A stretch of DNA of 64,000 nt, from positions 98,814,232 to 98,878,231 of the forward strand of contig NC_081554.1 in the NCBI RefSeq assembly GCF_963082655.1. Direction: 5' to 3'. Within the stretch, counting starts at the first letter, position 1; each line of letters begins with the position of its first letter. Of the stretch, positions 13,361 to 50,005 are shown piece after piece. A program made the translations under genes and the position numbers. The stretch is from Stomoxys calcitrans. Its lineage: Eukaryota; Arthropoda; Insecta; Diptera; Muscidae. The notes below the pieces were generated by a model, which was not told where the DNA came from, made no database searches, and saw nothing but the letters and a program-made list of their open reading frames with translations.

Positions 13361-14438
13361 TTATACCCTGCACCATAGGATGGGGGGTATACTAATTTCG
13401 TCATTCTGTTTGTAACTACTCGAAATATTCGTCTGAGACCCCATAAAGTATATGTATTCTTGATCGTCGTGAAATTTTATGTCGATCTAGCCATGTCCGT
13501 CCGTCTGTCTGTCGAAAGCACGCTAACTTCCGAAGGAGTAAAGCTAGCCGCTTGAAATGTTGCACAAATACTTCTTTTTAGTGTAGGTCGGTTGGTATTG
13601 TAAATGGGCCCTATCGGTCCATGTTTTGATATAGCTGCCATATAAACCGATCTTGGGTCTTGACTTCTTGAGCCTCTAGAGTGCGCAATTCTTATCCGAT
13701 TGGGATGAAATTTACCACAACGTGTTTTGTTATGATATCCAACAACTGTGCCAAGTATGGTTCAAATCGGTTTATAACCTGATATAGCTGCCATATAAAC
13801 CGATCTTGGGTCTTGACTTCTTGAGCCTCTAGAGTGCGCAATTCTTATCCGATTTGAATGAATTTTGACACGTAGAATTTTGTTATGATATCCAAGTATG
13901 CCAAGTATGGTTCAAATCGGTTCATTACCTGATATAGCTAAACAGATCTGGGGACTTGACTTCTTGAGCTTCTAGAGGGCGCAATTCTTATCCGATTAGA
14001 ATGAAATTTTGCACGACGTGTTTTGTTATGATATCCAACAACTGTGCCAAGTATGGTTCAAATCGGTTCATAACCTGATATAGCTAAACAGATCTTGGGT
14101 CTTGACTTCTTGAGCCTCTAGAGTGCGCAATTCTTATCCGATTTGGCTGAAATTTTGTACGACGTATTTTATTCTTACTTTCAACAACTGTGTCAAATAA
14201 GGTTCAAATCGGTTCATAACCTGACATTGCTGCTATATAAACCGATCTGGTATCTTGACTTCTTGAGCCTCTAGAGGTCGCAATTATTATCCGATTTGCC
14301 TGAAATTTTGCATGACTTATTCTATTCTTACTTGTTTTGCCCAAGAAGATATGCTTGGAAAGAACTCGACAAATGCGCTCCATGGTGGAGGGTATATAAG
14401 ATTCGGCCCGGCCGAACTTACCACGCTTTTACTAGTTT
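13361..14438 (+). mobile_element. Full-length DINE-1/Helentron-like element
   Basis: Complete copy. It has a 5' TATACCCTGCACCATAGG, ATTTCGTCATTCTGTTTGTA, CCCATAAAGTATATG and core GTCGATCTAGCCATGTCCG, then CGTCTGTCTGTCGAAAGC. About five internal repeats follow at intervals of about 143-153 bp (marker blocks at 13651, 13804, 13947, 14093, 14246). The 3' end has hairpin TTCGGCCCGGCCGAA and CTTTTACTAGTTTTT. It is inserted in a T-rich site within a local 166-bp repeat, and an uninterrupted version of that site is present at about 14583. No coding sequence; would depend on a Rep-helicase supplied elsewhere. Confidence 0.88.
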
Positions 14439-15877
14439 TTTATAGATCTGTATGACAGGGGCGTAGGTGATTTACACGGCATTTGGTATGTAATCTGAGA
14501 GTCTCAGCTAAATTCAAAATCGGTTCAAATTTGGCCAAATAAAAGTCTTATAGGGGCTCAAGGGTCAATAGGGGCTCAAGAGTTAATATTGCGGCTATTT
14601 TGTTTTTATAGATCTGTATGACAGTGGCGTAGGTGATTTACACGGAATTTGGTATGTAATCTGAGAGTCTCAGCTAAATTCAAAATCGGTTCAAATTAGG
14701 CAAAAAAAAAAGTCTTAAAGGGGCTCAAGAGTTAAATCGGTGATTCGGTTGAGTGTTGGAGCTATCGGTGATTCGGTTGAGTGTTTGATCATAAAAATTC
14801 GGACTTTACCTATCAGCGCTGTGCCCTGTTCCTTGATAGAATGTTCATGGGAAATTAAATAGTTTAGTAGAGTGGTGTCAGATTCACGATTAAGCTAAAT
14901 GATAAAGGAGTTCACCAACATTAACAGGGAACTACCACTGAAATTTTGCACGACGTGTTTTGTTATGATATCCAACAACTGTGCCAAGTATGGTTCAAAT
15001 CGGTTCATAACCTGATATAGCTAAACAGATCTTGGGTCTTGACTTCTTGAGCCTCTAGAGTGCGCAATTCTTATCCGATTTGGCTGAAATTTTGTACGAC
15101 GTATTTTATTCTTACTTTCAACAACTGTGTCAAATAAGGTTCAAATCGGTTCATAACCTGACATTGCTGCTATATAAACCGATCTGGTATCTTGACTTCT
15201 TGACTCTAGAGGTCGCAATTATTATCCGATTTGCCTGAAATTTTGCATGACTTATTCTATTCTTACTTGTTTTGCCTAAGAAGATATGCTTGGAAAGAAC
15301 TCGACAAATGAGCTCCATGGTGTAGGGTATATAAGATTCGGCCCGGCCGAACTTACCACGCTTTTACTAGTTTTTTATAGATCTGTATGACAGGGGCGTA
15401 GGTGATTTACACGGCATTTGGCATGTAATCTGAGAGTCTCAGCTAAATTCAAAATCGGTTCAAATTTGGCCAAATAAAAGTCTTATAGGGGCTCAAGGGT
15501 CAATAGGGGCTCAAGAGTTAATATTGCGGCTATTTTGTTTTTATAGATCTGTATGACAGTGGCGTAGGTGATTTACACGGAATTTGGTATGTAATCTGAG
15601 AGTCTCAGCTAAATTCAAAATCGGTTCAAATTAGGCAAAAAAAAAAGTCTTAAAGGGGCTCAAGAGTTAAATCGGTGATTCGGTTGAGTGTTGGAGCTAT
15701 CGGTGATTCGGTTGAGTGTTTGATCATAAAAATTCGGACTTTACCTATCAGCGCTGTGCCCTGTTCCTTGATAGAATGTTCATGGGAAATTAAATAGTTT
15801 AGTAGAGTGGTGTCAGATTCACGATTAAGCTAAATGATAAAGGAGTTCACCAACATTAAGAGGGAACTACCACTGCT
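14004..15877 (+). repeat. Tandem duplication of ~936 bp, nearly identical copies
   Basis: Sequence from 14004 (AAATTTTGCACGACGTG) to 14940 is repeated from 14941 to about 15877. The offset is 937 bp at the start and 935 bp at the end, because of a 2-bp deletion in a GAGCCTCTAGAG block. Each copy holds the 3' part of the DINE, the 166-bp repeats and a SINE tail. Near-identity implies a recent event. Confidence 0.85.
14441..14772 (+). repeat. Two tandem copies of a ~166-bp repeat
   Basis: TATAGATCTGTATGACAG starts units at 14441 and 14607, each followed by GCGTAGGTGATTTACACGG and GTATGTAATCTGAGAGTCTC. The left half-unit (TTAATATTGCGGCTATTTT) lies at 13343, before the DINE, so the DINE split a pre-existing tandem array. 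Confidence 0.75.
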
Positions 15878-24101: not shown

Positions 24102-24545
24102 ACAAGTAAAAGCGTGCTAAGTTCGGCCGGACCGAATCTTATATACCTTCCACCATGGATCGCACTTGTCAAGTTCTTTGCCCCATATCTCTTTCGGCCG
24201 AACCGAATCTTATATACCTTCCACCATGGATCGCATTTGTCAAGTTCTTTGCCCCATATCTCTTTATAGGGTAACACATGATAATGGATAAGAATTGCTA
24301 TGCTATCCCACGTTAAAAACCGATTGGTGCCATAATTGATTTGACTGTTGGTGACCAAAAAGAAGTCATTGTGCAAAATTTCAGTAAAATCGGATAAGAA
24401 TTGCACTATAGGCTCAAGAAGTATAATTAGGAGATCGGTTTATATGGGAGCTGTATCAGTCTATAGATGGACTCAGACCATATGTGACACTTATGTTAAA
24501 GGTCTTGTGAGAAGTCGTTGTACAAAAATCATTTGTCAATACTGA
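24102..24545 (-). mobile_element. DINE copy with duplicated 3' end
   Basis: The minus-strand 3' terminus (complement of CTTTTACTTGTT) is at 24102. The terminal block with hairpin, CCACCATGGATCGCA and TCAAGTTCTTTGCCCCATAT occurs twice in tandem, starting 24122 and 24193 (71-bp offset). Internal repeats continue to about 24545. Confidence 0.75.
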
Positions 24546-31997: not shown

Positions 31998-32005
31998 TCT
32001 GGTTT
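31998..32005. repeat. Left target-site duplication
   Basis: TCTGGTTT directly precedes the terminus ATGTCC. It matches 46329-46336 exactly. The match extends to nine bases (TTCTGGTTT, 31997-32005 and 46328-46336) if the last T of the right terminus is counted. Confidence 0.88.
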
Positions 32006-32280
32006 ATGTCCGTGAAGATAAAGTTAACTTTAACTAGCAGAGACACAAACCCATTCAATTAGCAGCACACTGTTACGAGCTTAGCAGAGCTATGCTAACA
32101 ATTTAACAGAAAAGATCTAGAAATAAAATCAAGAAAAATAATGAAAAAATTCATAAGAAACGACAACAAGAGCACTAAAAGGACCACAAACATTGCGAAT
32201 TTTGTAAAAAACTATCTAACAAAGTAATAAATGCATAAGAAACAAATCTTCAACACCAAAAAGTCCAAAGCGAAAAGTAG
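32006..32280 (+). repeat. Left 275-bp outer terminal inverted repeat
   Basis: Single-copy outer segment from ATGTCCGTGAAGATAAAG to CCAAAGCGAAAAGTAG. It has a 12-bp palindrome AAAGTTAACTTT at 32020-32031, 15 bp from the terminus, a plausible transposase site. By eye it is the exact reverse complement of 46054-46328, with the same length. Confidence 0.88.
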
Positions 32281-35200
32281 AAAAACTAAGAGGGGTGCCG
32301 GGTATCCACTTATAGTGAAGGAAGCTCTTGATGCCTAGGATCTAAATCAAAAAGCAAAATATGCAAAAAGCCGCCAGTATTTGAGATAATTGGCATTTAA
32401 AGTTAAAGTTAGAATTAACAGAATGGCCCACTGTGCAAAAACTAAGAGGGGTGCAGGGTACCCACTTATAGTGAAGGAAGCTCTTGATGCCTAGAATCTA
32501 AATCAAAAAGCAAAATATGCAAAAAGCCGCCAGTATTTGAGATAACTGCCATTTAAAGTTAAAGTTAGAATTAACAGAATGGCCCACTGTGCAAAAACTA
32601 AGAGGGGTGCAGGGTACCCACTTATAGTGAAGGAAGCTCTTGATGCCTAGAATCTAAATCAAAAAGCAAAATATGCAAAAAGCCGCCAGTATTTGAGATA
32701 ACTGCCATTTAAAGTTAAAGTTAGAATTAACAGAATGGCCCACTGTGCAAAAACTAAGAGGGGTGCAGGGTACCCACTTATAGTGAAGGAAGCTCTTGAT
32801 GCCTAGGATCTAAATCAAAAAGCAAAATATGCAAAAAGCCGCCAGTATTTGAGATAATTGCCATTTAAAGTTAAAGTTAGAATTAACAGAATGGCCCACT
32901 GTGCAAAAACTAAGAGGGGTGCATGGTACCCACTTATAGTGAAGGAAACTCTTGATGCCTAGAATCTAAATCAAAAAGCAAAATATGCAAAAAGCCGCCA
33001 GTATTTGAGATAATTGGCATTTAAAGTTAAAGTTAGAATTAACAGAATGGCCCACTGTGCAAAAACTAAGAGGGGTGCAGGGTACCCACTTATAGTGAAG
33101 GAAGCTCTTGATGCCTAGGATCTAAATCAAAAAGCAAAATATGCAAAAAGCCGCCAGTATTTGAGATAATTGCCATTTAAAGTTAAAGTTAGAATTAACA
33201 GAATGGCCCACTGTGCAAAAACTAAGAGGGGTGCATGGTACCCACTTATAGTGAAGGAAGCTCTTGATGCCTAGGATCTAAATCAAAAAGCAAAATATGC
33301 AAAAAGCCGCCAGTATTTGAGATAATTGGCATTTAAAGTTAAAGTTAGAATTAACAGAATGGCCCACTGTGCAAAAACTAAGAGGGGTGCAGGGTACCCA
33401 CTTATAGTGAAGGAAGCTCTTGATGCCTAGGATCTAAATCAAAAAGCAAAATATGCAAAAAGCCGCCAGTATTTGAGATAATTGCCATTTAAAGTTAAAG
33501 TTAGAATTAACAGAATGGCCCACTGTGCAAAAACTAAGAGGGGTGCATGGTACCCACTTATAGTGAAGGAAGCTCTTGATGCCTAGGATCTAAATCAAAA
33601 AGCAAAATATGCAAAAAGCCGCCAGTATTTGAGATAATTGCCATTTAAAGTTAAAGTTAGAATTAACAGAATGGCCCACTGTGCAAAAACTAAGAGGGGT
33701 TCAGGGTACCCACTTATAGTGAAGGAAGCTCTTGATGCCTAGGATCTAAATCAAAAAGCAAAATATGCAAAAAGCCGCCAGTATTTGAGATAATTGCCAT
33801 TTAAAGTTAAAGTTAGAATTAACAGAATGGCCCACTGTGCAAAAACTAAGAGGGGTGCATGGTACCCACTTATAGTGAAGGAAGCTCTTGATGCCTAGGA
33901 TCTAAATCAAAAAGCAAAATATGCAAAAAGCCACCAGTATTTGAGATAATTGCCATTTAAAGTTAAAGTTAGAATTAACAGAATGGCCCACTGTGCAAAA
34001 ACTAAGAGGGGTGCATGGTACCCACTTATAGTGAAGGAAGCTCTTGATGCCTAGGATCTAAATCAAAAAGCAAAATATGCAAAAAGCCGCCAGTATTTGA
34101 GATAATTGCCATTTAAAGTTAAAGTTAGAATTAACAGAATGGCCCACTGTGCAAAAACTAAGAGGGGTGCATGGTACCCACTTATAGTGAAGGAAGCTCT
34201 TGATGCCTAGGATCTAAATCAAAAAGCAAAATATGCAAAAAGCCGCCAGTATTTGAGATAATTGCCATTTAAAGTTAAAGTTAGAATTAACAGAATGGCC
34301 CACTGTGCAAAAACTAAGAGGGGTGCATGGTACCCACTTATAGTGAAGGAAGCTCTTGATGCCTAGGATCTAAATCAAAAAGCAAAATATGCAAAAAGCC
34401 GCCAGTATTTGAGATAATTGCCATTTAAAGTTAAAGTTAGAATTAACAGAATGGCCCACTGTGCAAAAACTAAGAGGGGTTCAGGGTACCCACTTATAGT
34501 GAAGGAAGCTCTTGATGCCTAGGATCTAAATCAAAAAGCAAAATATGCAAAAAGCCGCCAGTATTTGAGATAATTGCCATTTAAAGTTAAAGTTAGAATT
34601 AACAGAATGGCCCACTGTGCAAAAACTAAGAGGGGTGCATGGTACCCACTTATAGTGAAGGAAGCTCTTGATGCCTAGGATCTAAATCAAAAAGCAAAAT
34701 ATGCAAAAAGCCGCCAGTATTTGAGATAATTGCCATTTAAAGTTAAAGTTAGAATTAACAGAATGGCCCACTGTGCAAAAACTAAGAGGGGTTCAGGGTA
34801 CCCACTTATAGTGAAGGAAGCTCTTGATGCCTAGGATCTAAATCAAAAAGCAAAATATGCAAAAAGCCGCCAGTATTTGAGATAATTGCCATTTAAAGTT
34901 AAAGTTAGAATTAACAGAATGGCCCACTGTGCAAAAACTAAGAGGGGTTCAGGGTACCCACTTATAGTGAAGGAAGCTCTTGATGCCTAGGATCTAAATC
35001 AAAAAGCAAAATATGCAAAAAGCCGCCAGTATTTGAGATAATTGCCATTTAAAGTTAAAGTTAGAATTAACAGAATGGCCCACTGTGCAAAAACTAAGAG
35101 GGGTGCAGGGTACCCACTTATAGTGAAGGAAGCTCTTGATGCCTAGGATCTAAATCAAAAAGCAAAATATGCAAAAAGCCGCCAGTATTTGAGATAATTG

Positions 35201-37577
35201 CCATTTAAAGTTAAAGTTAGAATTAACAGAATGGCCCACTGTGCAAAAACTAAGAGGGGTTCAGGGTACCCACTTATAGTGAAGGAAGCTCTTGATGCCT
35301 AGGATCTAAATCAAAAAGCAAAATATGCAAAAAGCCGCCAGTATTTGAGATAATTGCCATTTAAAGTTAAAGTTAGAATTAACAGAATGGCCCACTGTGC
35401 AAAAACTAAGAGGGGTTCAGGGTACCCACTTATAGTGAAGGAAGCTCTTGATGCCTAGGATCTAAATCAAAAAGCAAAATATGCAAAAAGCCGCCAGTAT
35501 TTGAGATAATTGCCATTTAAAGTTAAAGTTAGAATTAACAGAATGGCCCACTGTGCAAAAACTAAGAGGGGTGCATGGTACCCACTTATAGTGAAGGAAG
35601 CTCTTGATGCCTAGGATCTAAATCAAAAAGCAAAATATGCAAAAAGCCGCCAGTATTTGAGATAATTGCCATTTAAAGTTAAAGTTAGAATTAACAGAAT
35701 GGCCCACTGTGCAAAAACTAAGAGGGGTTCAGGGTACCCACTTATAGTGAAGGAAGCTCTTGATGCCTAGGATCTAAATCAAAAAGCAAAATATGCAAAA
35801 AGCCGCCAGTATTTGAGATAATTGCCATTTAAAGTTAAAGTTAGAATTAACAGAATGGCCCACTGTGCAAAAACTAAGAGGGGTGCATGGTACCCACTTA
35901 TAGTGAAGGAAACTCTTGATGCCTAGAATCTAAATCAAAAAGCAAAATATGCAAAAAGCCGCCAGTATTTGAGATAATTGGCATTTAAAGTTAAAGTTAG
36001 AATTAACAGAATGGCCCACTGTGCAAAAACTAAGAGGGGTGCAGGGTACCCACTTATAGTGAAGGAAGCTCTTGATGCCTAGGATCTAAATCAAAAAGCA
36101 AAATATGCAAAAAGCCGCCAGTATTTGAGATAATTGCCATTTAAAGTTAAAGTTAGAATTAACAGAATGGCCCACTGTGCAAAAACTAAGAGGGGTGCAT
36201 GGTACCCACTTATAGTGAAGGAAGCTCTTGATGCCTAGGATCTAAATCAAAAAGCAAAATATGCAAAAAGCCGCCAGTATTTGAGATAATTGCCATTTAA
36301 AGTTAAAGTTAGAATTAACAGAATGGCCCACTGTGCAAAAACTAAGAGGGGTGCATGGTACCCACTTATAGTGAAGGAAGCTCTTGATGCCTAGGATCTA
36401 AATCAAAAAGCAAAATATGCAAAAAGCCGCCAGTATTTGAGATAATTGCCATTTAAAGTTAAAGTTAGAATTAACAGAATGGCCCACTGTGCAAAAACTA
36501 AGAGGGGTTCAGGGTACCCACTTATAGTGAAGGAAGCTCTTGATGCCTAGGATCTAAATCAAAAAGCAAAATATGCAAAAAGCCGCCAGTATTTGAGATA
36601 ATTGCCATTTAAAGTTAAAGTTAGAATTAACAGAATGGCCCACTGTGCAAAAACTAAGAGGGGTGCATGGTACCCACTTATAGTGAAGGAAGCTCTTGAT
36701 GCCTAGGATCTAAATCAAAAAGCAAAATATGCAAAAAGCCGCCAGTATTTGAGATAATTGCCATTTAAAGTTAAAGTTAGAATTAACAGAATGGCCCACT
36801 GTGCAAAAACTAAGAGGGGTTCAGGGTACCCACTTATAGTGAAGGAAGCTCTTGATGCCTAGGATCTAAATCAAAAAGCAAAATATGCAAAAAGCCGCCA
36901 GTATTTGAGATAATTGCCATTTAAAGTTAAAGTTAGAATTAACAGAATGGCCCACTGTGCAAAAACTAAGAGGGGTGCAGGGTACCCACTTATAGTGAAG
37001 GAAGCTCTTGATGCCTAGGATCTAAATCAAAAAGCAAAATATGCAAAAAGCCGCCAGTATTTGAGATAATTGCCATTTAAAGTTAAAGTTAGAATTAACA
37101 GAATGGCCCACTGTGCAAAAACTAAGAGGGGTTCAGGGTACCCACTTATAGTGAAGGAAGCTCTTGATGCCTAGGATCTAAATCAAAAAGCAAAATATGC
37201 AAAAAGCCGCCAGTATTTCAGATAATTGCCATTTAAAGTTAAAGTTAGAATTAACAGAATGGCCCACTGTGCAAAAACTAAGAGGGGTGCATGGTACCCA
37301 CTTATAGTGAAGGAAGCTCTTGATGCCTAGGATCTAAATCAAAAAGCAAAATATGCAAAAAGCCGCCAGTATTTGAGATAATTGCCATTTAAAGTTAAAG
37401 TTAGAATTAACAGAATGGCCCACTGTGCAAAAACTAAGAGGGGTGCAGGGTACCCACTTATAGTGAAGGAAGCTCTTGATGCCTAGGATCTAAATCAAAA
37501 AGCAAAATATGCGAAAAGCCGCCAGTATTTGAGATAATTGGCATTTTAAGTTAAAGTTAGAATTAACAGAATGACCC
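32281..37577 (+). repeat. Left array: 34 units of 156 bp
   Basis: Units start with AAAAACTAAGAGGGG at 32281, 32437, 32593 and so on to 37429. The last start minus the first is 5,148 = 33 x 156, so there is no net indel. Units differ by a few substitutions: GTGCAGGG/GTGCATGG/GTTCAGGG, CTAGGATC/CTAGAATC, GAAGCTC/GAAACTC, AATTGCC/AATTGGC. The unit contains GGGTACCC and CCTAGG palindromes. The first unit has a private GTGCCGGGTATCC; the last has GCGAAAAGCC and a broken end (ATGACCCAC). Confidence 0.95.
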
Positions 37578-37703
37578 ACAAAAATTAATATTTTATCACA
37601 TTTTCTTATATATCATATATATGTTATTTTGTATAACATTTTTTCTATTCGTGCTTATAAGGCCGGTATGATTTAAAATACTATTTAATATATATTATCA
37701 CAT
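37578..37703. other. AT-rich central spacer (loop) of the foldback
   Basis: About 126 bp rich in TATATAT, with one GC block (AAGGCCGGTATG). Only non-array DNA between the opposed arrays. No ORF. Either the remnant of a lost internal coding region or the junction where the arms were joined. Confidence 0.85.
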
Positions 37704-40700
37704 ATATTTTGCTTTTTGATTTAGATCCTAGGCATCAAGAGCTTCCTTCACTATAAGTGGGTACCCTGAACCCCTCTTAGTTTTTGCACAGTGGGCCATT
37801 CTGTTAATTCTAACTTTAACTTTAAATGGCAATTATCTCAAATACTGGCGGCTTTTTGCATATTTTGCTTTTTGATTTAGATCCTAGGCATCAAGAGCTT
37901 CCTTCACTATAAGTGGGTACCATGCACCCCTCTTAGTTTTTGCACAGTGGGCCATTCTGTTAATTCTAACTTTAACTTTAAATGGCAATTATCTCAAATA
38001 CTGGCGGCTTTTTGCATATTTTGCTTTTTGATTTAGATCCTAGGCATCAAGAGCTTCCTTCACTATAAGTGGGTACCCTGAACCCCTCTTAGTTTTTGCA
38101 CAGTGGGCCATTCTGTTAATTCTAACTTTAACTTTAAATGGCAATTATCTCAAATACTGGCGGCTTTTTGCATATTTTGCTTTTTGATTTAGATCCTAGG
38201 CATCAAGAGCTTCCTTCACTATAAGTGGGTACCCTGAACCCCTCTTAGTTTTTGCACAGTGGGCCATTCTGTTAATTCTAACTTTAACTTTAAATGGCAA
38301 TTATCTCAAATACTGGCGGCTTTTTGCATATTTTGCTTTTTGATTTAGATCCTAGGCATCAAGAGCTTCCTTCACTATAAGTGGGTACCATGCACCCCTC
38401 TTAGTTTTTGCACAGTGGGCCATTCTGTTAATTCTAACTTTAACTTTAAATGGCAATTATCTCAAATACTGGCGGCTTTTTGCATATTTTGCTTTTTGAT
38501 TTAGATCCTAGGCATCAAGAGCTTCCTTCACTATAAGTGGGTACCCTGCACCCCTCTTAGTTTTTGCACAGTGGGCCATTCTGTTAATTCTAACTTTAAC
38601 TTTAAATGGCAATTATCTCAAATACTGGCGGCTTTTTGCATATTTTGCTTTTTGATTTAGATCCTAGGCATCAAGAGCTTCCTTCACTATAAGTGGGTAC
38701 CATGCACCCCTCTTAGTTTTTGCACAGTGGGCCATTCTGTTAATTCTAACTTTAACTTTAAATGGCAATTATCTCAAATACTGGCGGCTTTTTGCATATT
38801 TTGCTTTTTGATTTAGATCCTAGGCATCAAGAGCTTCCTTCACTATAAGTGGGTACCCTGAACCCCTCTTAGTTTTTGCACAGTGGGCCATTCTGTTAAT
38901 TCTAACTTTAACTTTAAATGGCAATTATCTCAAATACTGGCGGCTTTTTGCATATTTTGCTTTTTGATTTAGATCCTAGGCATCAAGAGCTTCCTTCACT
39001 ATAAGTGGGTACCATGCACCCCTCTTAGTTTTTGCACAGTGGGCCATTCTGTTAATTCTAACTTTAACTTTAAATGGCAATTATCTCAAATACTGGCGGC
39101 TTTTTGCATATTTTGCTTTTTGATTTAGATCCTAGGCATCAAGAGCTTCCTTCACTATAAGTGGGTACCATGCACCCCTCTTAGTTTTTGCACAGTGGGC
39201 CATTCTGTTAATTCTAACTTTAACTTTAAATGGCAATTATCTCAAATACTGGCGGCTTTTTGCATATTTTGCTTTTTGATTTAGATCCTAGGCATCAAGA
39301 GCTTCCTTCACTATAAGTGGGTACCCTGCACCCCTCTTAGTTTTTGCACAGTGGGCCATTCTGTTAATTCTAACTTTAACTTAAAATGCCAATTATCTCA
39401 AATACTGGCGGCTTTTCGCATATTTTGCTTTTTGATTTAGATCCTAGGCATCAAGAGCTTCCTTCACTATAAGTGGGTACCCTGCACCCCTCTTAGTTTT
39501 TGCACAGTGGGCCATTCTGTTAATTCTAACTTTAACTTTAAATGGCAATTATCTCAAATACTGGCGGCTTTTTGCATATTTTGCTTTTTGATTTAGATCC
39601 TAGGCATCAAGAGCTTCCTTCACTATAAGTGGGTACCATGCACCCCTCTTAGTTTTTGCACAGTGGGCCATTCTGTTAATTCTAACTTTAACTTTAAATG
39701 GCAATTATCTGAAATACTGGCGGCTTTTTGCATATTTTGCTTTTTGATTTAGATCCTAGGCATCAAGAGCTTCCTTCACTATAAGTGGGTACCCTGAACC
39801 CCTCTTAGTTTTTGCACAGTGGGCCATTCTGTTAATTCTAACTTTAACTTTAAATGGCAATTATCTCAAATACTGGCGGCTTTTTGCATATTTTGCTTTT
39901 TGATTTAGATCCTAGGCATCAAGAGCTTCCTTCACTATAAGTGGGTACCCTGCACCCCTCTTAGTTTTTGCACAGTGGGCCATTCTGTTAATTCTAACTT
40001 TAACTTTAAATGGCAATTATCTCAAATACTGGCGGCTTTTTGCATATTTTGCTTTTTGATTTAGATCCTAGGCATCAAGAGCTTCCTTCACTATAAGTGG
40101 GTACCCTGAACCCCTCTTAGTTTTTGCACAGTGGGCCATTCTGTTAATTCTAACTTTAACTTTAAATGGCAATTATCTCAAATACTGGCGGCTTTTTGCA
40201 TATTTTGCTTTTTGATTTAGATCCTAGGCATCAAGAGCTTCCTTCACTATAAGTGGGTACCATGCACCCCTCTTAGTTTTTGCACAGTGGGCCATTCTGT
40301 TAATTCTAACTTTAACTTTAAATGGCAATTATCTCAAATACTGGCGGCTTTTTGCATATTTTGCTTTTTGATTTAGATCCTAGGCATCAAGAGCTTCCTT
40401 CACTATAAGTGGGTACCCTGAACCCCTCTTAGTTTTTGCACAGTGGGCCATTCTGTTAATTCTAACTTTAACTTTAAATGGCAATTATCTCAAATACTGG
40501 CGGCTTTTTGCATATTTTGCTTTTTGATTTAGATCCTAGGCATCAAGAGCTTCCTTCACTATAAGTGGGTACCCTGCACCCCTCTTAGTTTTTGCACAGT
40601 GGGCCATTCTGTTAATTCTAACTTTAACTTTAAATGGCAATTATCTCAAATACTGGCGGCTTTTTGCATATTTTGCTTTTTGATTTAGATCCTAGGCATC

Positions 40701-43700
40701 AAGAGCTTCCTTCACTATAAGTGGGTACCATGCACCCCTCTTAGTTTTTGCACAGTGGGCCATTCTGTTAATTCTAACTTTAACTTTAAATGGCAATTAT
40801 CTCAAATACTGGCGGCTTTTTGCATATTTTGCTTTTTGATTTAGATCCTAGGCATCAAGAGCTTCCTTCACTATAAGTGGGTACCCTGAACCCCTCTTAG
40901 TTTTTGCACAGTGGGCCATTCTGTTAATTCTAACTTTAACTTTAAATGGCAATTATCTCAAATACTGGCGGCTTTTTGCATATTTTGCTTTTTGATTTAG
41001 ATCCTAGGCATCAAGAGCTTCCTTCACTATAAGTGGGTACCATGCACCCCTCTTAGTTTTTGCACAGTGGGCCATTCTGTTAATTCTAACTTTAACTTTA
41101 AATGGCAATTATCTCAAATACTGGCGGCTTTTTGCATATTTTGCTTTTTGATTTAGATCCTAGGCATCAAGAGCTTCCTTCACTATAAGTGGGTACCATG
41201 CACCCCTCTTAGTTTTTGCACAGTGGGCCATTCTGTTAATTCTAACTTTAACTTTAAATGGCAATTATCTCAAATACTGGCGGCTTTTTGCATATTTTGC
41301 TTTTTGATTTAGATCCTAGGCATCAAGAGCTTCCTTCACTATAAGTGGGTACCCTGCACCCCTCTTAGTTTTTGCACAGTGGGCCATTCTGTTAATTCTA
41401 ACTTTAACTTTAAATGCCAATTATCTCAAATACTGGCGGCTTTTTGCATATTTTGCTTTTTGATTTAGATTCTAGGCATCAAGAGTTTCCTTCACTATAA
41501 GTGGGTACCATGCACCCCTCTTAGTTTTTGCACAGTGGGCCATTCTGTTAATTCTAACTTTAACTTTAAATGGCAATTATCTCAAATACTGGCGGCTTTT
41601 TGCATATTTTGCTTTTTGATTTAGATCCTAGGCATCAAGAGCTTCCTTCACTATAAGTGGGTACCATGCACCCCTCTTAGTTTTTGCACAGTGGGCCATT
41701 CTGTTAATTCTAACTTTAACTTTAAATGGCAATTATCTCAAATACTGGTGGCTTTTTGCATATTTTGCTTTTTGATTTAGATCCTAGGCATCAAGAGCTT
41801 CCTTCACTATAAGTGGGTACCATGCACCCCTCTTAGTTTTTGCACAGTGGGCCATTCTGTTAATTCTAACTTTAACTTTAAATGGCAATTATCTCAAATA
41901 CTGGCGGCTTTTTGCATATTTTGCTTTTTGATTTAGATTCTAGGCATCAAGAGCTTCCTTCACTATAAGTGGGTACCCTGCACCCCTCTTAGTTTTTGCA
42001 CAGTGGGCCATTCTGTTAATTCTAACTTTAACTTTAAATGGCAATTATCTCAAATACTGGCGGCTTTTTGCATATTTTGCTTTTTGATTTAGATCCTAGG
42101 CATCAAGAGCTTCCTTCACTATAAGTGGGTACCATGCACCCCTCTTAGTTTTTGCACAGTGGGCCATTCTGTTAATTCTAACTTTAACTTTAAATGGCAA
42201 TTATCTCAAATACTGGCGGCTTTTTGCATATTTTGCTTTTTGATTTAGATCCTAGGCATCAAGAGCTTCCTTCACTATAAGTGGGTACCATGCACCCCTC
42301 TTAGTTTTTGCACAGTGGGCCATTCTGTTAATTCTAACTTTAACTTTAAATGGCAATTATCTCAAATACTGGCGGCTTTTTGCATATTTTGCTTTTTGAT
42401 TTAGATCCTAGGCATCAAGAGCTTCCTTCACTATAAGTGGGTACCCTGCACCCCTCTTAGTTTTTGCACAGTGGGCCATTCTGTTAATTCTAACTTTAAC
42501 TTTAAATGCCAATTATCTCAAATACTGGCGGCTTTTTGCATATTTTGCTTTTTGATTTAGATCCTAGGCATCAAGAGCTTCCTTCACTATAAGTGGGTAC
42601 CCTGAACCCCTCTTAGTTTTTGCACAGTGGGCCATTCTGTTAATTCTAACTTTAACTTTAAATGGCAATTATCTCAAATACTGGCGGCTTTTTGCATATT
42701 TTGCTTTTTGATTTAGATCCTAGGCATCAAGAGCTTCCTTCACTATAAGTGGGTACCCTGCACCCCTCTTAGTTTTTGCACAGTGGGCCATTCTGTTAAT
42801 TCTAACTTTAACTTTAAATGGCAATTATCTCAAATACTGGCGGCTTTTTGCATATTTTGCTTTTTGATTTAGATCCTAGGCATCAAGAGCTTCCTTCACT
42901 ATAAGTGGGTACCCTGAACCCCTCTTAGTTTTTGCACAGTGGGCCATTCTGTTAATTCTAACTTTAACTTTAAATGGCAATTATCTCAAATACTGGCGGC
43001 TTTTTGCATATTTTGCTTTTTGATTTAGATCCTAGGCATCAAGAGCTTCCTTCACTATAAGTGGGTACCATGCACCCCTCTTAGTTTTTGCACAGTGGGC
43101 CATTCTGTTAATTCTAACTTTAACTTTAAATGGCAATTATCTCAAATACTGGCGGCTTTTTGCATATTTTGCTTTTTGATTTAGATCCTAGGCATCAAGA
43201 GCTTCCTTCACTATAAGTGGGTACCATGCACCCCTCTTAGTTTTTGCACAGTGGGCCATTCTGTTAATTCTAACTTTAACTTTAAATGGCAATTATCTCA
43301 AATACTGGCGGCTTTTTGCATATTTTGCTTTTTGATTTAGATCCTAGGCATCAAGAGCTTCCTTCACTATAAGTGGGTACCCTGCACCCCTCTTAGTTTT
43401 TGCACAGTGGGCCATTCTGTTAATTCTAACTTTAACTTTAAATGCCAATTATCTCAAATACTGGCGGCTTTTTGCATATTTTGCTTTTTGATTTAGATTC
43501 TAGGCATCAAGAGTTTCCTTCACTATAAGTGGGTACCATGCACCCCTCTTAGTTTTTGCACAGTGGGCCATTCTGTTAATTCTAACTTTAACTTTAAATG
43601 GCAATTATCTCAAATACTGGCGGCTTTTTGCATATTTTGCTTTTTGATTTAGATCCTAGGCATCAAGAGCTTCCTTCACTATAAGTGGGTACCATGCACC

Positions 43701-46053
43701 CCTCTTAGTTTTTGCACAGTGGGCCATTCTGTTAATTCTAACTTTAACTTTAAATGGCAATTATCTCAAATACTGGTGGCTTTTTGCATATTTTGCTTTT
43801 TGATTTAGATCCTAGGCATCAAGAGCTTCCTTCACTATAAGTGGGTACCATGCACCCCTCTTAGTTTTTGCACAGTGGGCCATTCTGTTAATTCTAACTT
43901 TAACTTTAAATGGCAATTATCTCAAATACTGGCGGCTTTTTGCATATTTTGCTTTTTGATTTAGATTCTAGGCATCAAGAGCTTCCTTCACTATAAGTGG
44001 GTACCCTGCACCCCTCTTAGTTTTTGCACAGTGGGCCATTCTGTTAATTCTAACTTTAACTTTAAATGGCAATTATCTCAAATACTGGCGGCTTTTTGCA
44101 TATTTTGCTTTTTGATTTAGATCCTAGGCATCAAGAGCTTCCTTCACTATAAGTGGGTACCATGCACCCCTCTTAGTTTTTGCACAGTGGGCCATTCTGT
44201 TAATTCTAACTTTAACTTTAAATGGCAATTATCTCAAATACTGGCGGCTTTTTGCATATTTTGCTTTTTGATTTAGATCCTAGGCATCAAGAGCTTCCTT
44301 CACTATAAGTGGGTACCCTGCACCCCTCTTAGTTTTTGCACAGTGGGCCATTCTGTTAATTCTAACTTTAACTTTAAATGCCAATTATCTCAAATACTGG
44401 CGGCTTTTTGCATATTTTGCTTTTTGATTTAGATCCTAGGCATCAAGAGCTTCCTTCACTATAAGTGGGTACCCTGAACCCCTCTTAGTTTTTGCACAGT
44501 GGGCCATTCTGTTAATTCTAACTTTAACTTTAAATGGCAATTATCTCAAATACTGGCGGCTTTTTGCATATTTTGCTTTTTGATTTAGATCCTAGGCATC
44601 AAGAGCTTCCTTCACTATAAGTGGGTACCCTGCACCCCTCTTAGTTTTTGCACAGTGGGCCATTCTGTTAATTCTAACTTTAACTTTAAATGGCAATTAT
44701 CTCAAATACTGGCGGCTTTTTGCATATTTTGCTTTTTGATTTAGATCCTAGGCATCAAGAGCTTCCTTCACTATAAGTGGGTACCCTGAACCCCTCTTAG
44801 TTTTTGCACAGTGGGCCATTCTGTTAATTCTAACTTTAACTTTAAATGGCAATTATCTCAAATACTGGCGGCTTTTTGCATATTTTGCTTTTTGATTTAG
44901 ATCCTAGGCATCAAGAGCTTCCTTCACTATAAGTGGGTACCATGCACCCCTCTTAGTTTTTGCACAGTGGGCCATTCTGTTAATTCTAACTTTAACTTTA
45001 AATGGCAATTATCTCAAATACTGGCGGCTTTTTGCATATTTTGCTTTTTGATTTAGATCCTAGGCATCAAGAGCTTCCTTCACTATAAGTGGGTACCCTG
45101 CACCCCTCTTAGTTTTTGCACAGTGGGCCATTCTGTTAATTCTAACTTTAACTTTAAATGCCAATTATCTCAAATACTGGCGGCTTTTTGCATATTTTGC
45201 TTTTTGATTTAGATCCTAGGCATCAAGAGCTTCCTTCACTATAAGTGGGTACCATGCACCCCTCTTAGTTTTTGCACAGTGGGCCATTCTGTTAATTCTA
45301 ACTTTAACTTTAAATGGCAATTATCTCAAATACTGGTGGCTTTTTGCATATTTTGCTTTTTGATTTAGATCCTAGGCATCAAGAGCTTCCTTCACTATAA
45401 GTGGGTACCATGCACCCCTCTTAGTTTTTGCACAGTGGGCCATTCTGTTAATTCTAACTTTAACTTTAAATGCCAATTATCTCAAATACTGGCGGCTTTT
45501 TGCATATTTTGCTTTTTGATTTAGATTCTAGGCATCAAGAGTTTCCTTCACTATAAGTGGGTACCATGCACCCCTCTTAGTTTTTGCACAGTGGGCCATT
45601 CTGTTAATTCTAACTTTAACTTTAAATGGCAATTATCTCAAATACTGGCGGCTTTTTGCATATTTTGCTTTTTGATTTAGATCCTAGGCATCAAGAGCTT
45701 CCTTCACTATAAGTGGATACCCGGCACCCCTCTTAGTTTTTGCACAGTGGGCCATTCTGTTAATTCTAACTTTAACTTTAAATGGCAGTTATCTCAAATA
45801 CTGGCGGCTTTTTGCATATTTTGCTTTTTGATTTAGATTCTAGGCATCAAGAGCTTCCTTCACTATAAGTGGGTACCCTGCACCCCTCTTAGTTTTTGCA
45901 CAGTGGGCCATTCTGTTAATTCTAACTTTAACTTTAAATGCCAATTATCTCAAATACTGGCGGCTTTTTGCATATTTTGCTTTTTGATTTAGATCCTAGG
46001 CATCAAGAGCTTCCTTCACTATAAGTGGATACCCGGCACCCCTCTTAGTTTTT
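37704..46053 (-). repeat. Right array: 53 full units plus a partial, inverted
   Basis: The unit-boundary motif CTTAGTTTTT occurs at 37776 and every 156 bp to 46044 (8,268 = 53 x 156). The array starts with an 82-bp partial unit. Units are the reverse complement of the left array. Variants recur with a 13-unit (2,028-bp) period over about 39.3-45.5 kb. The outermost unit carries the same private variant (GGATACCCGGCACC) as the left arm's outermost unit; a second copy sits two units inward at about 45715. Confidence 0.95.
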
Positions 46054-46328
46054 CTACTTTTCGCTTTGGACTTTTTGGTGTTGAAGATTTGTTTCTTATG
46101 CATTTATTACTTTGTTAGATAGTTTTTTACAAAATTCGCAATGTTTGTGGTCCTTTTAGTGCTCTTGTTGTCGTTTCTTATGAATTTTTTCATTATTTTT
46201 CTTGATTTTATTTCTAGATCTTTTCTGTTAAATTGTTAGCATAGCTCTGCTAAGCTCGTAACAGTGTGCTGCTAATTGAATGGGTTTGTGTCTCTGCTAG
46301 TTAAAGTTAACTTTATCTTCACGGACAT
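46054..46328 (-). repeat. Right 275-bp outer terminal inverted repeat
   Basis: Reverse complement of 32006-32280 with no difference noticed by eye. It begins CTACTTTTCGCTTTGGAC right after the last array unit. Confidence 0.88.
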
Positions 46329-46336
46329 TCTGGTTT
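46329..46336. repeat. Right target-site duplication
   Basis: TCTGGTTT directly follows the terminus GGACAT, equal to 31998-32005. Removing the element and one copy restores a continuous site, CTTCTGGTTTTGCGG. Confidence 0.88.
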
Positions 46337-47704: not shown

Positions 47705-50005
47705 TCGGGAGTAGCCGACAATATAACACACTACATCTACACCAGATCGGTCTATATGGGAGCTACATCCGGTGATTCACCGATTCGGACCCTACATGGC
47801 ACGGTTGTTGGGAATCATAACAAAACATCATGCGCAAAATCTCAACAAATTCGGATTCGCCCTCTAGAAGCTTAGGAATTATAATCGAGAGCTCGGCTTT
47901 TTCCGGAAGTCGATTCCACATACGAACGGTTCGGGCGAAATAAGAATTCTCTCTATAATGCATTGTGCGGTCCGCTGGCCAATCAGTTACAAACGGTTGT
48001 AAATTCCTGGAATGTCTAGTATCCCCGACAAACATCCTTACATCAGGAATAAGAAGACTAATATCGGACGAACACACACCATGAAAGTACCAATAGAACA
48101 GCGCCAAACAACCCACATTGCGACGATGATGAAGGGAGGCAATAGAGTTGGATACACGGTCCAGTAGCTCCAGGGATGAATTTGAAGCTCCAGCCCATAC
48201 ATGTGAGTTGTACTCCATTTTCGGCCTTATGAAAGTGGTGTAGATGTTAGGAAGATCAGACGGAATGAAGTAATTCTTACACCGTCACATCAAGAGCTTG
48301 CTTGATTGCTCAACATTTACACCGTTAATAGACAGAGATGATCGTAATGGGTCAGCGAATCGTTTGTGTGACAACAAACAGCACTGAGTCTTCCGTGCAT
48401 TAAAATCTACTTGATTCATTCGACCCCACTCAGAAATGGCCAGCAAATCCTGGTAGAGTGTATCGTCCATAAGCCGCCTCTTTTCCTCAATCTCTCTAAG
48501 ACTTGGCCTATGGTCAAATGAGTACGAATGAAAGAGATTATTGTCATCCGCAAATGAGTAGATGGGATTCGAAAGAGAGAAGGAGAAAGAACAGAGCCCC
48601 GGGGTACACCTGCGGTCAATTTGTGCTCATTGGATGAGAACCCATCTATAACGACTCGAATAGAGCGATCTCTGAGAAAGCTCGAAATAAATCGAACGAA
48701 GCCATTACCGACATATGCGACAAGCTTTGATAGTAGTACACCGTGCCAGACCCTATCAATTGCCTTGAAGATATCCAGAGCCACATCCTTACTCTCAAAA
48801 AACTGGTGGATTGAGCGATTTCAACGTTCCGACAGAAGTGTCATGAGGTCGCCCGTAGAGCGATTTCTGCGGAACCCATACTGTTGGTCGCTTAGAAGGC
48901 CAATAGACTCTAAATACCTCACAGAATGTTGATTAACCATGCTCTCCATGACCTTGCAGAGAGCGGAGCATATCGCAATTGGCCGACAATTCGCAGGGTT
49001 GTTTGCCTCACCCTTCTTGGGTATTGGCTGAACGTTCGCAACCTTCCAAAGCCGGGTAGACTCCCGCACGGTAGGCAAGGTTGAAAAGGTTGCGTAATGG
49101 ACGAGCGAGCGTCGAAGAACACTTGCGTATGACAAGTGTTGATATGCCATCCGGGCCCGGGGATTTATTTGCGTCTAGATGTTCCAGAACCCTTTTAACT
49201 CTACGAGTTCGAAAAAATATTTGGGGCATGACGTCAGATACATTTTCGATTGAGGGGAGTGGTTGATTGCTATCCGGCAGGGAAGAGTTCCCTGCAAATA
49301 TATCAGCCAGCACCCTAGCCTTATCGACCGGGTCAGTGAACGTTTGATCGTCCTTAACAAGAGTTGGAATAAATGAAGAACTACCCTTTACTCTTTTCAC
49401 GAACGACCAAAAGCTCTTACTTCCTCGTGTAGAAGCAAGAACCTTAGTGCGCAGGTGCTGTTCGTACAGAAATTTTTCGCTCCTAAGCACATTGGCGCAC
49501 GAAGATATTGCCTGTTTGCGCAGCAGTTCAGTATTGGCATTTTTATCCAAGCGCCAATTCCTGAATGCTACCACTTTCGATCTTACAGCATCTCTGCATG
49601 TCTGGTTAAACCAACTTTTGTCGTCGGATTTAGCCGTTATAGTCTTAACTGGAATAAATGTCCTCATCCATTAACTATCTTATATGGGAGCTGTACCAGG
49701 TGATGGACCGTACTTGACACGGTTGTTGCGAGTCATAACAAAACATTACGTGCATAATTTCAAATAAATCGGAAAAGCTGAAGAAGTACAATAGGCAGAT
49801 CGGTGCTATGGGAGTTACATATACAGTATTTGTGCAAAATGTCAAGCGGCTAGCTTCACTCCTTCAAAAGCTAGCGTGCTCTAGACAAATGGACAGAAGG
49901 ACGGATAAAGCTAAATACACTTTATGAAGACTTAGATCAACATTTCAAGGTGTTGCAAACGGAATGACAAAATTAATACACCCCCATCCTATTGTGGAGA
50001 GTTAC
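47705..50005 (-). mobile_element. DINE copy interrupted by a LINE fragment
   Basis: Minus-strand DINE internal-repeat blocks lie at 47740-47898 and resume at 49678 with TATATGGGAGCTGTACCAGG. They continue through AAGCGGCTAGCTTCACTCC and GGACAGAAGGACGGA to the 5' terminus near 49975-49995 (complement of CTCCACAATAGGATGGGGG). The two halves join in register if 47899-49677 is removed. Confidence 0.75.
47899..49677 (-). mobile_element. Jockey-group LINE fragment (linker and RT), truncated at both ends
   Basis: On the minus strand: a 219-codon frame from 49667 covers the endonuclease-RT linker (KSWFNQTCRDAVRSKV, FWSFVKRVKG) and enters RT at ANKSPGPDGIS. After a frameshift the next frame gives VQPIPKKGEANNPANCRPIA and QYGFRRNRSTGDLM. 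The next has motif A as ALDIFKAIDRVWH and motif B as AGVPRGSVLSPSLF. Catalytic motif C is FADD at 48543-48554. The C-terminal domain runs EYNSHVWAGAS to RMWNRLPEKAEL and stops abruptly. No 3' UTR, poly(A) or endonuclease domain. At least three frameshifts; inactive. It sits inside a DINE. Confidence 0.85.

Follow-up and report, generated by a model that had tools for sequence, protein, structure and literature searches.

What fills more than 14 kb of a fly chromosome with one short repeat, laid out as two arrays facing each other, and how could such a structure have come to lie there? The question is raised by a locus in Stomoxys calcitrans, studied here in a window of 64,000 nucleotides (NCBI RefSeq assembly GCF_963082655.1, contig NC_081554.1, positions 98,814,232 to 98,878,231 of the forward strand), in which a single insertion of 14,323 bp occupies positions 32006–46328. 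An original prediction, made from the letters of the window, had taken this insertion for a foldback transposon, and the analysis supports that interpretation. It is very probably a non-autonomous foldback DNA transposon whose family is moved in trans by a 1026-amino-acid (aa) DDE-type transposase, the window copy having arisen by a microhomology deletion and the arms growing and shrinking in blocks with mirror copying between them.

Architecture of the insertion

The observation itself is confirmed: one insertion with target-site duplications (TSDs), identical ends and opposed arrays. Its parts are the following, in window positions.

31998..32005, no strand: left TSD, TCTGGTTT; the same 8-mer stands at both borders, and 12 further copies have TSDs of 8–9 bp
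32006..32283, plus strand: left terminal inverted repeat (TIR; flanking domain), beginning ATGTCCGTGAAG; 278 bp, 100% identical to the right end
32284..37579, plus strand: left array, 34 units of 156 bp, from Tandem Repeats Finder (TRF), anchor spacing and unit comparison
37580..37703, no strand: 124-bp spacer, equal to the 3' end of a 7.5-kb middle domain, from its match to gene-bearing copies
37704..37706, no strand: putative internal-deletion breakpoint between middle domain and 156-bp unit, with 3-bp microhomology (ATA), from comparison with copy C5_18.38 and the unit
37704..46050, minus strand: right array, 53.5 units of 156 bp, which show a higher-order period of 13 units (2.03 kb)
46051..46328, minus strand: right TIR, 278 bp, identical to the left
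46329..46336, no strand: right TSD, TCTGGTTT, matching the left 8-mer

The opposed arrays of 34 and 53 units of 156 bp that had been predicted were recovered by TRF as 34.0 units at 32281–37579 and 53.5 units at 37704–46053 (period 156 and 98% matches in both), and unit anchors were found at exact 156-bp steps, 34 on the plus strand and 54 on the minus strand, the innermost of the latter being partial. These unit counts are as assembled, and the exact numbers rest on the assembly. The units of both arms read inwards, towards the spacer. Matching outer ends and a central loop were likewise present, with lengths of 278 and 124 bp in place of the 275 and 126 bp first given, and the target duplications, for which no length had been stated, proved to be 8 bp long. 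A chance match of one given 8-mer pair has, by simple arithmetic, a probability of about 1.5e-5.

Coding across the array is interrupted in each of the six frames of the unit by a stop, no clear shorter ancestral period was seen within the 156 bp, and Rfam gave no match at gathering score in the whole window. Similarity between TIR and unit is weak: the score for the whole TIR was reached by 15 (plus) and 11 (minus) of 500 shuffles, and that for its first 60 bp by 28 (plus) and 2 (minus) of 500.

Copies of the family in the genome

The genome searched comprises 1,070,917,216 bases in 297 contigs; in it the window is C3:98814232–98878231 and the element C3:98846237–98860559, and all genome-wide copy counts are lower bounds. 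The Lucilia cuprina relative, and likewise the style of the short repeats, hint at a higher fly as host. A search with the outer 275 bp yielded 448 candidates at first look; 40 of these were scored, and all 40 matched at 96–100%. Twenty-six of these end matches form 13 facing pairs 1.1–18.8 kb apart, the window included. Paired copies with the termini of the window element thus number no fewer than 13 in the genome, and TSDs were found at 13 loci. The copies analysed were the window, the 12 other pairs and three of the 14 unpaired end matches. Among the 14 two-ended copies the TSD is 9 bp long in ten, 8 bp in three (the window, C1_73.69 and C5_18.38) and absent in one; the TSD sequences of the 12 other copies differ from TCTGGTTT.

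Over 275 bp, the ends of the window element are identical to both ends of C5_105.85, C4_131.74, C2_95.13 and C1_73.69. Such identity across copies points to recent movement of the family, to which gene conversion could have contributed. The arms hold 0.8–53.5 units, and the two arms of one copy are usually unequal. In C5_105.85 and C4_119.88 the middle is short and each arm adjoins a 3' border; C4_131.74, C2_112.91 and C1_199.32 consist of almost nothing but arms. In an 18.8-kb copy (C4:119880567–119899372) the right side carries two inverted-unit blocks about 9 kb apart, which may reflect the nesting of one insertion in another or the joining of two copies.

Outside this genome, a 24-base unit pattern had no match in a separate collection of genome contigs, and a TIR pattern had none in viral contigs. 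Three viral contigs matching a 21-base unit pattern were rejected as chance, since blastn shows only those 21 bases. Terminal and unit strings gave only short-string matches, in five papers of the open-licence literature, none on this subject by title.

Gene-bearing copies and the origin of the window copy

Four of the 13 paired copies carry a transposase-like gene between the arms, open in one of them:

C5_18.38: 17,868 bp, 7.5-kb middle kept, open frame
C2_95.13: 11,009 bp, 7.5-kb middle kept, frame interrupted
C1_73.69: 10,164 bp, 7.5-kb middle kept, frame interrupted
C4_108.04: 11,099 bp, 7.5-kb middle kept, frame interrupted

With the same termini at many loci, the TSDs and such a relative, the claim that the insertion is both a transposon and a satellite-like array has been borne out. 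The middle domains of the four are 98–99.8% alike, and that of C5_18.38 contains a single open frame of 1069 codons, or 1026 aa from the first ATG. Up to 44 units per arm occur in a gene-bearing copy, and the inner borders are constant in all four, one arm adjoining the 5' end of the middle and the other its 3' end. An inverted middle in C4_108.04 was considered and rejected, as its borders are swapped too and the whole copy is therefore inserted in the other orientation.

The spacer of the window copy equals the terminal 124 bp of this middle, at 100% identity to C5_18.38 and C2_95.13 and 99.2% to C1_73.69. It is oriented opposite to that of C5_18.38, with the 3' border on the left arm; on the other side its junction with the right arm falls within a unit, where the two sequences have 3 bp in common. 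Because the spacer corresponds to the 3' terminus of the 7.5-kb middle, the window copy is best read as an internal-deletion derivative, namely a full-length element that has lost about 7.4 kb of its middle. Its parent would have had the full 7.5 kb, and the window copy has probably moved in trans. Its deletion junction occurs in no other of the 12 copies whose inner borders were compared (the window counted among the 12). On this comparison, the first reading is refined to that of a non-autonomous internal-deletion copy whose relatives keeping the middle measure 10–18 kb.

The candidate transposase

In the protein of the family D, D and E residues are conserved, the C-terminal part holds a protease domain of Ulp1/SENP type, and there is a cluster of cysteines resembling that of a PHD finger. 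The PHD finger has the form C4HC3. A PHD-like C-terminal cysteine pattern was found in six of 12 proteins, with C in place of the H of PHD in five and H in P0009; Pfam gave a PHD match in P0008 only, below cut-off. No hAT or THAP domain was matched by Pfam in the 11 proteins scanned (for THAP, none at E≤1). The Foldseek lists for P0001 were filled by one domain and cover the fold of that domain only, and a low-confidence model of P0007 returned nothing at E≤0.001.

Three same-scoring matches to residues 754–1005, the protease region, lie within 35 kb at C1:32704486, C1:32722850 and C1:32737889 with open frames of 312 aa, and may represent a distinct gene family or a protease that has been captured. 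In P0008, a distant relative from Ceutorhynchus assimilis named as a ubiquitin-like protease family protein, a YqaJ recombinase domain (E 4.2e-18) adjoins the transposase-like part.

A second subfamily with unrelated units

A search of the genome with the protein produced 75 candidates, of which 45 were scored, and 47 matches were listed. Among the matches listed, eight loci have open frames of 1073–1107 aa that are 40–41% identical:

Subfamily-2 open frames: C4:120088826, C5:107872201, C1:24919145, C4:71387493, C4:101497606, C5:87727386, C2:129917546, C4:111796224

Five of the eight score equally and are for this reason probably very recent copies. The anatomy of the subfamily rests on one of these loci, an element of 22,986 bp at C5:107865432–107888417. 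It is flanked on both sides by the 9-bp TSD GGGTCTTAG, its ends are 330 bp long (329 identities, 2 gaps), and opposed arrays of a 175-bp unit, with 18.8 and 23.8 copies, enclose a middle of about 14 kb. In the subfamily-2 middle (L034 2675–3306) lies an inverted repeat of 303 nt whose arms are 94% complementary and stand 26 nt apart.

The first 46 bp are homologous to the terminus of the window element (score reached by none of 2000 shuffles), whereas the 175-bp unit has no similarity to the 156-bp unit (scores reached by 287 and 122 of 300 shuffles). With termini and protein homologous and units unrelated, it appears that termini and protein were kept while the unit was replaced. The motif TTARCAG occurs three times in the window TIR, four times in the subfamily-2 TIR and once per 156-bp unit, and is absent from the 175-bp unit; it was picked after inspection, and its shuffle counts are exploratory.

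Growth of the arrays

In a comparison of 86 full units of the window, variation was confined to 12 of the 156 positions; paired units were on average 98.8% identical, whether both came from the left arm, both from the right arm or one from each. Typing of 87 units by their variants gave 14 types. In the right arm these recur with a 13-unit period (2.03 kb), a result reached by none of 1000 shuffles; the left arm alone has no significant period (248 of 1000 shuffles reach it). Read from the outside in, left units 24–34 align with right units 30–43 save for one three-unit insertion. The score of this order was reached by 1 of 2000 shuffles with L34 and R43 scored as one type, a choice made after their three shared variants had been seen, and by 10 of 1000 with the two scored as different; the reversed order gave no comparable match (7.06 versus 13.2–17.0). 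The period and the matching order together indicate that duplication proceeded in blocks of about 13 units and that part of one arm was mirror-copied in the other. The clearest mirror case is C5_18.38, in which the outer 13 units differ between the arms by one variant. Unequal exchange, replication slippage and template-switch copying from arm to arm all fit these patterns, and a choice among them would be conjecture.

Two older tandem arrays lie elsewhere in the window, at 13627–15268 (units of 146–153 bp, 81–85% matches, no blastn match to the 156-bp unit), as does a 71-bp tandem pair at 24122–24265 (97% matches).

Proposed mechanism

In the proposed mechanism, the 1026-aa DDE-type transposase with its C-terminal Ulp1-type protease, coded by fuller copies on other contigs, would move the family by acting in trans on the common ends (ATGTCCGTGAAG...). 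This protein is the putative mover; the ends, and perhaps TTARCAG in each 156-bp unit as well, may bind it, and movement would be of the cut-and-paste kind. Loss of about 7.4 kb by a microhomology deletion would have reduced the window copy to its two inverted arms, with 124 bp of middle sequence between them. Unequal exchange or replication slippage would then lengthen or shorten the arms a block of units at a time, the blocks of the right arm being 13 units long, and copying between the arms in mirror register may keep them 98.8% identical.

Several results weigh against this account. The frame is interrupted in three of the four copies that keep the middle, and the two-ended copy C1_105.09 has no TSD, its ends perhaps deriving from different insertions. 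A Pfam scan of the family's own protein gave no significant match, and among the 11 scanned proteins a MULE domain (PF10551) was found only in P0009 (26% identical), with E 1.5e-3, below the curated cut-off. Predicted structures of the catalytic part were poor (mean predicted local distance difference test score, pLDDT, 54.7 and 46.1), and these models lent no support to a transposase fold. Mirror copying is not uniform either. A copy's own two arms were best-matching, against the right arm of any other copy, in only 7 of 11 copies; from this comparison 5 of 16 sequences were excluded for an arm with fewer than three typed units, untypably divergent units were dropped, and copies with a distant second block were used only up to that block. 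In the one subfamily-2 element analysed no mirror order was present (Spearman -0.17, p 0.50). Finally, as TTARCAG is missing from the 175-bp unit and the two units are unrelated, the arrays are not generally arrays of that site.

A bolder version is conceivable, if rather doubtful. The family may be a recently active 'satellite factory', in which a transposase bearing an Ulp1-type (de-SUMOylating or similar) protease would act on ends that amplify units, with mirror copying through a hairpin or template-switch intermediate. Subfamilies would recruit unrelated units into the same position, and the building of arrays would then follow from how the element replicates, whatever the sequence of its unit.

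FB4 (PMC8277862) and Tetris (PMC4079207) are presented in the cited sections without an identified transposase, and Galileo and Tm1 have candidates. Here a single genome offers fuller copies alongside deletion derivatives, a transposase-like frame that is open, and two subfamilies whose units are unrelated. Such variety makes it testable which enzyme moves foldback elements, whether tandem units help and how a transposon seeds satellite DNA. The unit variants, in addition, are a direct record of the expansion of inverted arrays and of copying between them.

To the right of the element, at a distance of 1.4 kb, broken open frames lie on the minus strand at 47766–49670, with a match to the reverse transcriptase domain RVT_1 at 48419–48820 (E 5.7e-6, below the curated cut-off); they resemble a non-LTR retrotransposon remnant.

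Alternative explanations

The same anatomy could belong to a canonical foldback of the Mutator or Phantom type and not to Rehavkus, an assignment that seems unlikely but keeps some weight. TSDs of 8–9 bp would suit it, FLYWCH fingers can occur in Phantom elements, as can, in aphids, a minisatellite following the open reading frame (PMC6446971), and nematode Tm1 is described as a foldback with a Phantom-type transposase (PMC3169594). To these may be added the weak MULE match in P0009 and a weak WRKY-like match of predicted N-terminal strands in P0007 (Foldseek E 0.04–0.06). Satellite in inverted termini together with a PHD finger are, however, published marks of Rehavkus (PMC6446971, PMC10218199), the PHD-like cluster recurs in half of the 12 proteins, and the family's own protein lacks a MULE match.

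It is improbable that the locus is a hairpin-RNA locus, kept for the small interfering RNAs (siRNAs) that a long inverted array would yield. A transcript across the insertion would be expected to form kilobases of near-perfect double strand, and long MULE TIRs have been linked to siRNAs (PMC6446971). No reading frame crosses the units and Rfam is silent in the window, though neither would exclude such a role; transposition accounts for every feature, and small RNAs could be an effect of the insertion and not the reason for it.

Very little speaks for a satellite array inverted by rearrangement or assembly error. Near-identical units in arrays of this kind are hard to assemble, and unit counts could still be wrong, but for the family as a whole this explanation is already contradicted by exact ends with TSDs at 13 loci, four of them with a coding middle. 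An assembly error that folded the sequence back should moreover have mirrored the flanks, whereas the inverted match stops at the TIR borders and the flanks are not mirrored. A hAT- or P-type element can hardly be credited: the 8-bp TSD of the window and the foldback-like TIRs of Galileo, of the P superfamily (PMC3573991, PMC3688188), recall one, but ten of the 14 copies have 9 bp, Galileo has 7, and hAT and THAP matches are lacking in the 11 proteins.

Comparison with known foldback elements

Judged on published features, the family is provisionally best filed beside Rehavkus, next to Mutator-like elements (MULEs). In the cited account, Rehavkus has 9-bp TSDs, TIRs of 26–400 bp, a minisatellite before the 3' TIR and a PHD finger, and is known from few members in arthropods and annelids (PMC6446971). 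The 9-bp TSD is found here in the ten copies and in one subfamily-2 element, the window copy itself having 8 bp, and TIRs of 278 bp (330 in subfamily 2) are followed by arrays on both sides. The general foldback plan, an outer domain and variable tandem repeats around a middle domain, is also present. Although the family had not been recognised from sequence, published precedents such as Rehavkus-1_TC and Tetris mean that it is not without relatives. Rehavkus-1_TC of Tribolium castaneum, a DNA transposon of 9.5 kb, likewise carries a satellite in its inverted termini, with a 164-bp unit close in size to the 156 bp found here; by description its arrays are mostly of five and eight monomers (PMC10218199), where the window copy has 34 and 53.

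Tetris of Drosophila virilis, compared by description, shares the flanking domain and tandem-repeat domain in its TIRs and similar TSDs (8–10 bp). Its repeats also form long arrays of up to 66 copies, placed by fibre fluorescence in situ hybridization (fibre-FISH) between two flanking domains; sequenced TIRs reach 1,735 bp, and in the cited sections no transposase was found (PMC4079207). In the window element, by contrast, the sequence runs from one intact end to the other through facing arrays of 5.3 and 8.3 kb, and a transposase-like gene is present in some copies of the family. Tandem repeats of 154 bp that derive from Helitrons are also reported from D. virilis (PMC12910113). Drosophila FB4, again by description, is similar in its TSDs (9–10 bp), repetitive TIRs (about 700 bp) and rearranged copies, and is described as non-autonomous, its transposase being given as unknown in the cited text (PMC8277862). 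Galileo also has long TIRs (up to about 1.26 kb) with internal repeats, which can differ in number between the ends and contain THAP binding sites; it differs in its membership of the P superfamily and its 7-bp TSDs (PMC3573991, PMC3688188), those of the present family being 8–9 bp, with no THAP match. Tm1 of root-knot nematodes resembles the family in its composite, variable TIRs and a transposase-coding group, assigned to Phantom, with TSDs of 8–10 bp in 45 of 53 cases; its unit is 13–15 bp (PMC3169594) against 156 bp.

Across 4268 arthropod genomes, a survey published in 2026 reports, in the part cited, 322 complete MULEs of 1.4–10.0 kb, a longest TIR of 1,193 bp and recent activity in several species (PMC13359780). 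The gene-bearing copies described here measure 10.2–17.9 kb, and the subfamily-2 element 23.0 kb. Set beside these systems as described, the family of the insertion is new but of a kind already known, and its arms are extreme.

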